NCBI GenBank assembly: GCA_016124805.1
Contig: WGND01000001.1
Span: 1-64,000, forward strand
DNA length: 64,000 nucleotides
Source: Hyphomicrobiales bacterium
GTDB taxonomy: Bacteria > Pseudomonadota > Alphaproteobacteria > Parvibaculales > Parvibaculaceae
Direction: 5' to 3'
Shown: piece after piece, positions 29,907-33,157 of the stretch
How the letters are laid out: each line of letters opens with the position of its first letter
How positions within the stretch are numbered: position 1 is the stretch's first letter
Position numbers and translations under genes: made by a program
Notes under the pieces: generated by a model
What the model saw: only the letters and a program-made list of their open reading frames with translations
What the model was told of the DNA's origin: nothing
Database searches by the model: none

Positions 29907-31217
29907 ATGGCTTATAAGAAAATTCCCATCTCGGACCTGATTGTTAATCCTGCAAATGATCGTCACGGTGAACTGGAAAACGAAACTGCAGCCATCGCGC
30001 AACTCTTCGCGACTCAAGAATTGCATATGCGCAATTTGGCCAAGGATATCGCGACAAACAAAGATGTCTTTGAGCCACCACTCGTTTACCCGGATGGAAA
30101 CAAGTTCATAGTGGCAGATGGGAATCGTCGCACAACTTGTCTCAAGTTGCTTTCATCACCGCGTCGGGCACCAACACCTGAACTTCAAAAATTTTTTTCC
30201 GACCTTCGACAAAACTGGGGTGATAGTTTTCCAGATAAAATTGAGTGCCGCGTCGAGTCTGATCGCGACCGCGTGGATGACATACTCTATCGTCGTCATA
30301 CAGGTGTGCAGGGGGGTATAGGCCAAAGTAATTGGAACGACAGAATGAAGAAAAATTTTGTTGTTCGTACCGGCAAAAGTAAAAGTTTGCATCTAGCTGA
30401 TGAAATTGAGAAACGGCTCAAAACGGCAAACTTACTCCCTACAAAGAAAATTCCGCGCTCTAATATGAATCGACTCCTATCATCCGAAGCGTTACGAAAC
30501 CGCGTTGGAATATCTGTCCGAAAAGATAAGCTGGAATTCATTCGAGATGAAAATACGTCGCTTGAGGCGTTGAGCAGGATTGCCACAGATTTAGCCAACA
30601 AGACCAAAACTCTTGAGGATATATGGAGCACCACTTCTAAACTCAAGTACTTGGACGAGTTGGACGCTGAAGGAATTCTCCCAACTGTCCATGATGTGGT
30701 CACATCTGAATCGTCATCTCAAAAGACATCATCATCGACATCGACGGATGCTTCGAAGTCCGTTTCGCGAAAACCCAAACCTTGGCCGCATATTATTACG
30801 GAGGCCGAGCATGGGATTTCTTGGAGCGCGAGGACTCATCGACATCAAGAAATTTGGGAAGAACTTCAATATAAGCTTTTGCTATCAGATCACCCCAACG
30901 CAATTTCTGTCCTTCTCAGAGTTCTGCTTGAGCTATCAATTGAAAACTACATCAAGCAATCCAAAGTCACATCGGCTCACCCAAACGATAAACTCTCAAA
31001 CAAGGCTGCTAAAGTTGCTGCACATATGGAGGAAAAAGGTTTAATCGATAAAAAGTATCTTGGAGACATTAAAAAGCTTCAACAGGGTGAAGCCCTTATT
31101 TCGACAGATACCCTTAATCGCTACGTTCACTCGTCTAATTTTCGTGTTTCCCCTGAACACCTGAAAAGTCTCTGGGGGACTCTCGAAGAATTTATTATCA
31201 ACTGCCTGAAAGCATAA
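29907..31217 (+). CDS. ParB/sulfiredoxin-fold N-domain protein with unassigned helical C-domain
   Basis: 436 aa. Residues 1-90 form a ParB N-terminal-like domain: PISDLIVNPANDRHG, a loop ending EPPLVYPDGN, then ADGNRRTTCLKLL, where DGNRR replaces the GERR box of partition ParB. No ParB HTH or dimer domain is evident. A basic, Ser/Thr-rich linker (about 265-290) leads to a helical C-terminal domain (about 310-436) containing HPNAISVLLRVLLELSIENYI, which I cannot assign; HEPN-like architecture is possible. The gene stands alone, is far more AT-rich than its surroundings, and has an AAGAGGAC ribosome site. The composition, isolation and nuclease-related fold suggest an acquired defence or element-maintenance gene (inference). 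Confidence 0.7.
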   Translation: MAYKKIPISDLIVNPANDRHGELENETAAIAQLFATQELHMRNLAKDIATNKDVFEPPLVYPDGNKFIVADGNRRTTCLKLLSSPRRAPTPELQKFFSDLRQNWGDSFPDKIECRVESDRDRVDDILYRRHTGVQGGIGQSNWNDRMKKNFVVRTGKSKSLHLADEIEKRLKTANLLPTKKIPRSNMNRLLSSEALRNRVGISVRKDKLEFIRDENTSLEALSRIATDLANKTKTLEDIWSTTSKLKYLDELDAEGILPTVHDVVTSESSSQKTSSSTSTDASKSVSRKPKPWPHIITEAEHGISWSARTHRHQEIWEELQYKLLLSDHPNAISVLLRVLLELSIENYIKQSKVTSAHPNDKLSNKAAKVAAHMEEKGLIDKKYLGDIKKLQQGEALISTDTLNRYVHSSNFRVSPEHLKSLWGTLEEFIINCLKA

Positions 31218-31270
31218 AATCCTTGATCTAAGAGGCTAAATTGAACCGCTGTCTCTATGAGCCTCTCTAC

Positions 31271-31299
31271 TTGACGCCCTCGCCGCTCGCGCCTATCTT
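31271..31299 (+). promoter_or_regulatory. Sigma70-type promoter of leuA leader
   Basis: TTGACG at 31271-31276, exact 17-bp spacer, TATCTT at 31294-31299. Six bases separate the -10 box from the A of the leader-peptide ATG at 31306, so transcription probably begins at the start codon. Confidence 0.7.
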
Positions 31300-31305
31300 T
31301 CACCC

Positions 31306-31383
31306 ATGAACCGCGTATTGCACATTGCTGACCTCGCTCTCAGCCTCGCCCTATTGGGCAAGGGCACGCTTCTGCGCGCGTAG
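31306..31383 (+). CDS. Leucine-rich leader peptide of leuA (leuL-type)
   Basis: 25-codon ORF with eight leucine codons, six of them between codons 10 and 23 (LALSLALL core), using CTC, CTA, TTG, CTT and CTG. No Shine-Dalgarno site exists upstream, consistent with a leaderless transcript starting at its ATG. The stop codon TAG lies in the loop of an 8-bp perfect hairpin (TTCTGCGC and GCGCAGAA, 31370-31390). Position before leuA and leucine content fit attenuation by leucyl-tRNA supply. No U-tract terminator is obvious, so the downstream switch is not resolved. Confidence 0.65.
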   Translation: MNRVLHIADLALSLALLGKGTLLRA

Positions 31384-31504
31384 CGCAGAACATCATCCGG
31401 CTCATCCATATATCTTTTCCCGTTTATTTTGATTGCGACTTCGCCTTAGCTTTTCTGGCAGAGTCGTTACCCAGCGCTGACCCGCGCTGCCGGAGCAAGA
31501 CGCC

Positions 31505-33157
31505 ATGTTGAAAGACCCTTCGCAAAAATACCGCGCTTTTCCGCCGATTGACCTGCCTGACAGGCAATGGCCGAACCGCGCCATCACGCAGCCGCCGATC
31601 TGGATGAGCACCGATTTGCGCGACGGCAACCAGTCGCTTTTCGAGCCGATGGATGCCGACCGCAAGATGCGGATGTTCGAGCTTCTGGTGCGCATCGGCT
31701 TCAAGGAAATCGAGGCGGGGTTTCCCTCCGCCTCCGACACTGATTTCAACTTCATCCGGGAGCTGATCACCGGCGGGCATGTGCCGGACGACGTGCGCCT
31801 TGAGGTCTTGACCCAGGCGCGCGAAGAACTGATCACGCGGACCATGGAAAGCCTGCGCGGGGCCAGGCACGCGCTGGTGCATGTCTATAATGCGACCGCG
31901 CCCAATTTCCGCGATGTCGTGTTTCAGCAGGGCAAGCAGGGCGTGAAGGCCATTGCCATGGAGGCGGCACGCCAGATCAAGTCGCTCGCCGCCGGGCAGC
32001 CCAAAACCGACTGGCGCTTTCAATACAGCCCCGAGGTTTTTTCCGGCACGGAGCTCGAATTTGCCAAGGAAGTGGTGGATGCCGTGACCGAAATCTGGGA
32101 GGCAAGCCCGGAGCGCCCCGTCGTCATCAATCTGCCAGCGACGGTCGAAATGGCCTCGCCCAATATCTATGCCGACCAGATCGAATGGATGCATCGCAAC
32201 CTCAAGCGGCGCGAGGGCATCATCCTCTCGCTGCATCCCCATAATGATCGCGGCACGGCGGTGGCCGCTGCCGAGCTTGGCATGATGGCGGGTGCTGACC
32301 GCGTGGAAGGCTGCCTCTTTGGCAATGGCGAACGCACGGGCAATGTCGATCTCGTGACGCTGGCGCTCAATCTCTATTCGCAGGGGATTGATCCGGGGCT
32401 TGATTTTTCACAGATCAACGAGGTCGCGCGCACGGTTGAATATTGCAACCAGTTGCCGATCCATCCGCGCCACCCCTATGTGGGCGATCTGGTGTTCACC
32501 GCTTTTTCCGGGTCGCATCAGGATGCGATCAAGAAGGGCTTTGCCGCGCGCAAGGAAGGCGACATCTGGGAAGTGCCCTATCTGCCGGTGGACCCGCATG
32601 ATCTGGGGCGCACTTACGAGTCGATCATTCGTGTAAACAGCCAGTCGGGCAAGGGCGGCATCGCCTATCTGCTTGAAACGGAATATGGGCTGGCTTTGCC
32701 GCGCCGGCTGCAGGTGGAGTTTTCTTCAATCGTGCAGAAGATTGTCGATGTGTCGGGCAAGGAAGTGCGCGCCGCCGATATTTACGAAATCTTCGCCGAT
32801 GAATATCTGCGCCGAGAGACACCGATTGCCTATGTCAGCCATTCGCTGTTTGACGAGGCGGGCAAGCAGGGCGTGCGCATGGTGGTGAAACGCAACGGCC
32901 AGGAAGAAACGCTGAGCGGGCTAGGCAATGGCCCGATTGATGCCGCCATGAATGCGCTCGGCCTGCCGCTGCAGGTGCGCCACTATGAAGAACATTCGAT
33001 GGGCTCGGGCTCGGATGCGCGCGCTGTTGCCTATGTGGAAGTGGCGGACCCTGATGTGGCCGGTGATATTTTCGGTGTGGGGATTGATCCCAACATCATC
33101 ACCGCTTCGTTCCGCGCGATGATCAGCGCGGCCAACCGGGCAGCCACGCGCAAGTGA
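31505..33157 (+). CDS. leuA: 2-isopropylmalate synthase
   Basis: 550 aa. Commits 2-oxoisovalerate plus acetyl-CoA to leucine synthesis. The aldolase-type barrel begins with [16 protein letters not shown] (catalytic Arg/Asp), has the metal motif [11 protein letters not shown], and the C-terminal LeuA regulatory domain is present (about 430-545), so leucine feedback inhibition is expected. The length matches the longer LeuA class used by many Alphaproteobacteria and Actinobacteria. Preceded by a leucine-rich leader ORF and followed by a hairpin terminator. Confidence 0.95.

Follow-up and report, generated by a model that had tools for sequence, protein, structure and literature searches.

The window, as we call the whole 64-kb stretch of DNA analysed here, carries a gene for a long-form 2-isopropylmalate synthase, leuA, whose scores against NF002991 (878.6 bits) and TIGR00970 (793.4 bits) both exceed the cut-off. 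Upstream of leuA lies a short leucine-rich open reading frame (ORF), designated leuL, with a promoter-like site in front, a hairpin at its stop codon and a C-rich tract behind. The features of the locus are:

31271..31276, + strand: -35 element of leuL, TTGACG (letter check; TTGAC in 25/25 genus loci)
31294..31299, + strand: -10 element of leuL, TATCTT, ending 6 nt 5' of the ATG
31306..31383, + strand: leuL, predicted leaderless ORF of 25 codons, MNRVLHIADLALSLALLGKGTLLRA, 8 Leu; predicted transcription start at or adjoining 31306
31370..31390, + strand: stop-codon hairpin TTCTGCGC/GCGTA/GCGCAGAA, 8 bp (p = 0.01 against shuffled downstream sequence)
31393..31438, + strand: C-rich, G-poor, YC-rich tract, candidate Rho-loading (rut) region (C 26%, G 13%, 10 YC dimers)
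31433..31441, + strand: TTGCGACTT, which may pair with the 3' arm of the hairpin (CGCAG) and may be what is left of CGACTTA, both roles being putative
31492..31495, + strand: Shine-Dalgarno (SD) sequence of leuA, GGAG, nine nt before the leuA ATG and base-paired in the fold predicted for 31306-31520
31505..33157, + strand: leuA, long-form 2-isopropylmalate synthase, 550 aa (NF002991, TIGR00970, PF00682, PF22615, PF08502)

A leucine-rich ORF with its own promoter precedes leuA

The anatomy of promoter, ORF and hairpin was read directly from the sequence. Checking letter by letter, we verified what the first-pass annotation had described, i.e. TTGACG and TATCTT separated by a spacer of 17 nt, followed by an ORF of 25 codons, eight of them for Leu. 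Six nucleotides (TCACCC) separate the -10 element from the ATG at 31306, and the ORF ends with TAG at 31381-31383. Its Leu codons are, in order, TTG, CTC, CTC, CTC, CTA, TTG, CTT and CTG; CTG thus accounts for one of eight, compared with 49% in six neighbouring genes (211 Leu codons in all), and three of the eight are TTG or CTA, both rare among these genes. The annotation had also stated that leuL lacks an SD sequence, and indeed the 20 nt 5' of its ATG offer no favourable pairing to CCUCCU. Between 31200 and 31560 one promoter-like site was detected, against a mean of 0.2 in shuffled sequence.

Within the window the arrangement is singular. Scanning both strands of the 64 kb, we found leuL to be the sole Leu-rich short ORF in this promoter-ORF arrangement, and among 761 ATG-started ORFs of 15-40 codons (a count that includes nested starts) it is the one with 8 or more Leu and a Leu share of no less than 30%. 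The pattern TTGAC-N-N16-18-TANNNT-N6-8-ATG has three matches in the 3.2-Mb genome and its reversed form has one; of the three, leuL alone opens a short ORF, the other two opening long ORFs. By eye, these two starts belong to a ribonucleotide reductase-like large gene (L214) and to a gene resembling a TetR-type regulator. No comparable leaderless leader came up when the sequence upstream of an IlvB-type gene and of two TrpE-type genes in this genome was scanned under relaxed settings, over as much as 500 nt and from family-match starts that may lie off the true starts.

The gene on the upstream side (29907-31217, 436 aa) ends 53 bp before the leuL promoter. It matches the PADLOC anti-phage family PD-Lambda-5_A (E 2.9e-81) and has no Pfam or NCBIfam match at 0.001. 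Several relatives in the genus carry, by eye, other and mutually similar sequence at its place, and the gene therefore looks like an insertion, one that would have spared the leuL promoter.

The leader ORF is conserved in Parvibaculum

Among 27 Parvibaculum genomes, 25 leuA loci could be assessed; the genomes left out are G012, in which the long-form leuA was not found, and G005, in which the contig begins within leuA. The first-pass annotation had named absence of the ORF from close relatives as one of the observations that would speak against it, and a Leu-rich leader ORF was found in 25 of the 25 loci with equal promoter spacing. Every locus presents TTGAC, a spacer of 16-18 nt, a -10-like hexamer, 6-8 nt and an ATG, the last distance being 6 nt in 14 loci, 7 nt in 10 and 8 nt in one. 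The ORFs are 23-30 codons long and Leu-rich (n=25). The peptide sequence varies within the genus, whereas the Leu content, the promoter spacing and the stop hairpin are kept. Where 16 related leaders differ by gaps within the ORF, these measure 3 or 6 nt, the exception being one-base differences at the stop.

One group of Parvibaculum loci (L093, L095, L109, L110, L111 and L121) has a long spacer and also carries leuL. This group possesses a strongly conserved block from GCGACTTA to approximately CGGACCTTGCGCCCGTGGCAGTCCGG upstream of leuA with a predicted hairpin, and by eye the block contains in some loci a frame running into the leuA start.

The arrangement recurs outside the genus

To place leuL in a wider frame we scanned 83 non-genus alphaproteobacterial leuA loci, taken from 76 of 78 non-own genomes with a strong leuA match (G196 and G212 were left out) and from seven family genomes; two loci, L164 and L187, had short upstream sequence. 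A strict scan detected a Leu-rich ORF in the leaderless arrangement in 42 of the 83 and gave no match in 41, with a background of 0.05% in shuffled sequence and 0/83 on the reverse strand. The distances between -10 element and ATG, counted such that a single locus may contribute at several distances here and in the other histograms, peaked at 6 nt (14) and 7 nt (23), with lesser counts at 9 (6), 10 (7) and 16 nt (4). The same arrangement was present in 17 of 75 mostly beta- and gammaproteobacterial leuA loci, i.e. non-Parvibaculum loci that are beta- or gammaproteobacterial by title or titled just Proteobacteria, and in none of the shuffled sequences; here a distance of 6 nt was counted 10 times and one of 7 nt six times. 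Named organisms with the arrangement are Tistrella mobilis, Denitromonas and Janthinobacterium.

The peak at 6-7 nt, seen in all three locus sets, supports the leaderless start that the first-pass annotation had proposed. In promoters of the sigma-70 type, the usual spacing is such that a -10-to-ATG distance of 6-8 nt puts the transcription start at the ATG. Since leuL and its relatives show this distance, the predicted start of the leuL transcript lies at the ATG, and the mRNA probably begins at its own start codon. The exact start site, the translation of leuL and a response to leucine are predictions.

The stop codon lies in a hairpin that is not followed by an intrinsic terminator

The earlier claim that the leuL stop codon sits at the loop of an 8-bp hairpin was borne out letter by letter: the T and the A lie in the loop, and the 3' arm opens with the G. 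A stop hairpin of 6-8 bp is present in 25/25 genus loci, with p values of 0.000-0.035 each. Its arms are mostly TCTGCGC/GCGCAGA; those of L109, CTTCGT/ACGAAG, are consistent with compensated changes. In the class, 18 of 52 leaders (42 strict matches plus 10 added by hand, some of them near-duplicates) have the stop codon in a hairpin loop at p<=0.05, where 2.6 are expected, and the arms differ from leader to leader (CCCGGTACT/AGTGCCGGG, CTGTGCCG/CGGCACAG and CGCCGGCC/GGTCGGCG). Among the beta- and gammaproteobacterial leaders a stop hairpin at p<=0.05 was detected in just 2 of 17. An exact search for the pattern TCTGCGCNTRAGCGCAGAAM gave no match in 289 class genomes, a set that includes the genome of the window, in which the loop is too long for the pattern, and is otherwise free of members of the genus; the negative result thus applies to this hairpin sequence in the non-genus genomes of the sample.

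The annotation's further point, that no U-tract terminator follows, holds in the window and in the genus, as terminator-like sites were found neither in 31200-31560 nor in any of the 25 loci (0/25). In the class such sites are at background level (7/52, against 6/52 on the opposite strand). Rfam 15 searched at gathering score returned no hit in the window and none in two sets of 9 and 11 related loci.

A possible alternative partner of the hairpin lies downstream. The 3' arm could pair with a YTGCG segment, which is present in 17 of the 25 genus loci and missing in 8; this alternative pairing is short and without covariation.

A C-rich tract follows the hairpin in Parvibaculum

In the 46 nt past the stop hairpin, C exceeds G in 25/25 genus loci (mean C 38%, mean G 15%), the C content of the window tract (26%) being the lowest of the 25. 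Under strict conditions, which asked for a C:G ratio of 2 or more, no more than 15% G and 10 or more YC, 10 of the 25 genus loci passed, the window among them, and 15 failed; none of the 52 class leaders passed, and 0.25% of 46-nt windows across the 64 kb did so. Under a looser test (C at least twice G and at least 12 C), the tract was recognised in 21/25 genus loci versus 1/52 class leaders and 3.5% of the 64-kb windows; 124 of 2377 other stretches within the same upstream regions passed as well.

The anatomy best supports reading leuL as a leucine-sensing leader. Two switches had been proposed for it, a translational and a Rho-dependent one. Given that the locus has no intrinsic terminator and that a C-rich, G-poor stretch of 46 nt follows the hairpin, as in a tna-like Rho-dependent leader-peptide attenuator, the Rho-dependent one is tentatively favoured, a tract of this kind being indirect evidence for Rho. 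We thus propose, with a probability of roughly one half, that leuL is a leader that senses leucine and attenuates leuA without an intrinsic terminator, via a Rho-type switch after the stop hairpin. Every step of this switch is a prediction. Transcribed from its own promoter, the mRNA would begin at the AUG, and the first ribosome would therefore bind a bare 5' end; its speed over the eight Leu codons would report the level of charged tRNA-Leu. With ample leucine, the ribosome would complete leuL and leave at the UAG, the stop hairpin would re-form and the naked C-rich tract would be exposed to Rho, ending transcription before leuA. When leucine runs short, stalling at the late Leu codons would leave the ribosome on the 5' arm of the hairpin, and the freed 3' arm could pair with a YUGCG segment 42-52 nt downstream, closing the C-rich tract such that RNA polymerase would reach leuA. 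Because the strict form of the tract was found in 0/52 class leaders, the Rho step would be specific to the genus.

In class relatives the leader is predicted to pair with a second upstream ORF

Exploring the class loci between positions -450 and -20, we found the 7-mer CGACTTA in 56 of 83, with two copies in 29. Permuting its letters gives 630 7-mers, CGACTTA among them, which occur in a mean of 1.6 loci; the next highest reaches 26 and the reverse complement 1. One copy often lies within the leaderless leader (CTT-CGA-CTT-A) and the other in a second upstream ORF (uORF) closer to leuA. Pairing of the leader with downstream sequence exceeded that of shuffled sequence at p<=0.05 in 13/52 class loci, and pairing of the first 30 nt of the leader with the second-uORF start region did so in 11 of the 30 loci that have both uORFs. 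For 26 of these (30 minus four near-duplicates), the summed duplex energy of native leader/second-uORF pairs was -430, compared with -310 (sd 18) for permuted pairs, and beat all 20000 permutations. In both the 30 and the 26 loci, the second-uORF starts had been picked by hand once the leader/downstream pairings were known, and some bias is possible. The mean rank of the native partner was lowest (0.16) just upstream of the second-uORF start and amounted to 0.41-0.60 at -50, at -40 and from +30 onward.

The window itself contains no CGACTTA upstream of leuA; at 31433 it has TTGCGACTT instead, perhaps a relic of this motif. A TTG-started frame, LRLRLSFSGRVVTQR, occupies 31433-31480 directly after an in-frame TGA. 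It resembles the second uORF of other alphaproteobacteria (...LRLxxGR...) and is a possible relic as well.

These data allow a tentative reading for the class, to which we give somewhat less than even odds: many alphaproteobacterial leuA genes may be controlled by an undescribed two-stage leucine sensor, from a leaderless uORF A through a uORF B to leuA, without an intrinsic terminator. The 5' end of uORF A, which often ends in an LRLTxPxL-like sequence, would pair with the ribosome-binding region of uORF B, and uORF B would repeat CGA-CTT-A ahead of its own hairpin. Slow decoding of Leu codons in A would release B, and B would then gate leuA. The short-spacer Parvibaculum group to which the window belongs may represent a reduced form, in which A is kept, B is lost or eroded (TTGCGACTT) and a Rho-type tract is used instead.

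Alternatives to the proposed Rho-type switch

The main rival to the Rho-type switch is translational control, which we regard as unlikely for leuL, though likelier than the other alternatives. It transfers the class-wide pairing between leader and second uORF to the window, with leuA standing in for the latter: leuL would pair through its 5' end with the ribosome-binding region of leuA and hide the leuA SD sequence, and stalled ribosomes would open the pairing. In the class, the first 30 nt of the leader do prefer the start region of their own second uORF (26 loci). The predicted fold of 31306-31520 in the window (z -2.2; 7 of 200 shuffles fold equally well) pairs GCGU/UUGC (31313-31321) with GCAA/ACGC (31495-31503) and UCCGGC at 31396-31401 with GCCGGA at 31489-31494, which covers GGAG. 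A swap test over 13 genus loci covered 48 combinations; for the window, the native leuA start region ranked first at offset -10 and likewise at +20. Across the genus, however, the swap-test ranks were near 0.5, and pairing of the leader with the leuA start region gave a mean p of 0.49, with p<=0.05 in 3/25 loci, all of one subgroup; for the window p was 0.64, and 0.875 for the whole leader. When all downstream sequence was allowed as partner, p<=0.05 was reached in 5 of the 25 genus loci, the window having p = 0.39. Modelled ribosome stalls also left the leuA start of the window nearly unchanged, the mean opening energy being 10.1 in the free and 10.0 in the stalled state, with 7.6 as the lowest value for a single stall. 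Opening of the leuA start by modelled stalls was considered for all 25 loci too (means of 8.5 free, 7.2 stalled and 8.3 with the ribosome at the stop) and set aside, since a few loci drive the change.

Classical transcription attenuation with an intrinsic terminator, as in the enterobacterial leu operon, is improbable. A Leu-rich leader ORF before leuA and a hairpin at its stop codon are what this mechanism would lead one to expect, but the terminator-like site that it needs is missing from the window and from the 25 genus loci.

Just as improbable is that the conserved leaderless short ORF acts in trans, as a small protein or a dual-function sRNA, instead of or beside a sensor in cis, for which rnTrpL/peTrpL of S. 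meliloti sets a precedent (PMC7298713). The drift of the peptide within the genus, with Leu content, promoter spacing and stop hairpin staying in place, argues against such a role. Our leader search was anchored at leuA and covered other positions with the strict pattern in this genome.

Finally, a functionless chance combination of promoter and ORF, conceivable for so short an ORF, is contradicted by its presence in 25/25 genus loci and by the class-wide excess over shuffles, and we give it next to no weight.

Relation of leuL to known leaders

The first-pass annotation had pointed to trpL of Sinorhizobium, a leader peptide encoded from the very 5' end of its mRNA, and rightly so: S. meliloti rnTrpL begins with the ATG of trpL (PMC7298713). 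In the open-access literature searched, it is the alphaproteobacterial leader peptide documented as starting at the mRNA 5' end. This attenuator of trpE(G) resembles leuL in being a 5'-end leader ORF before a gene of its own pathway in an alphaproteobacterium (PMC7298713, PMC10117765); it responds to tryptophan and has a described transcription terminator, whereas leuL would respond to leucine and none was found for it. The enterobacterial leuABCD leader, of 28 aa with 4 Leu (PMC6123439), likewise places a Leu-coding ORF before leuA. Unlike that attenuator, leuL has no intrinsic terminator, no leader SD sequence and no Rfam match. A leader ORF with a run of Leu codons upstream of leuA is also shared with the actinobacterial LEU element, for which a base stem between this run and the leuA SD sequence was proposed; leader mutations of Streptomyces leuA did not fit classical attenuation (PMC1262725). 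For leuL, LEU-element-like pairing between the Leu run and the leuA SD sequence is not favoured, as it was no better than with shuffled start regions (window p 0.875; p<=0.05 in 2/25). In alphaproteobacteria, an ilvB leader peptide was predicted by Vitreschak et al. 2004, cited in PMC1273637; like leuL it is an amino-acid-coding leader before a gene of a branched-chain pathway, the gene being a different one.

No alpha- or betaproteobacterial leuA leader is described among the open-access literature matches listed, and Vitreschak et al. 2004 may treat leuA; the main text of two papers on S. meliloti start sites and Ribo-seq (PMC10117765, PMC3616915) does not name leuA. Leader-peptide attenuators are thus known, and what we call new here is one that appears to be leaderless, to serve leucine, to lack an intrinsic terminator and to be widespread. 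If true, a sensor ORF beginning at the very 5' end would be a general design, used at leuA across much of the class and in some betaproteobacteria. Attenuation that dispenses with an intrinsic terminator could then be studied conveniently on leuL, and the tuning of leucine synthesis in the bacteria that carry it would have an explanation open to test.

Other leucine-rich ORFs upstream of leuA

Six named plasmid records were scanned as well. The strict arrangement was detected in one of the six, that of Tistrella mobilis, and a relaxed scan yielded weak candidates in Sphingomonas, Cupriavidus and R. leguminosarum. Neither scan gave a leader in the S. meliloti and Shinella records. By eye, both of these have a 41-codon Leu-rich ORF in front of leuA, the hexamers TATAGG and TATAAG lying 7 and 9 nt, respectively, 5' of the ATG, and the ORF that the relaxed scan returned for R. 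leguminosarum is similar. In Cupriavidus metallidurans CH34 (megaplasmid, L211), a 49-codon Leu-rich uORF before leuA ends in SLLLSLPIGCRA, resembling the end of the rhizobial 41-codon ORFs (LLLLGLIRGCRVR); a weak promoter is predicted by the scan at a distance of 10 nt from the ATG. In five further loci (L008, L019, L026, L031 and L032), Leu leaders with ends of the GLLLRxxRx type are followed, upstream of leuA, by a CCCCTCCTGTTG-like stretch that resembles an anti-SD sequence.
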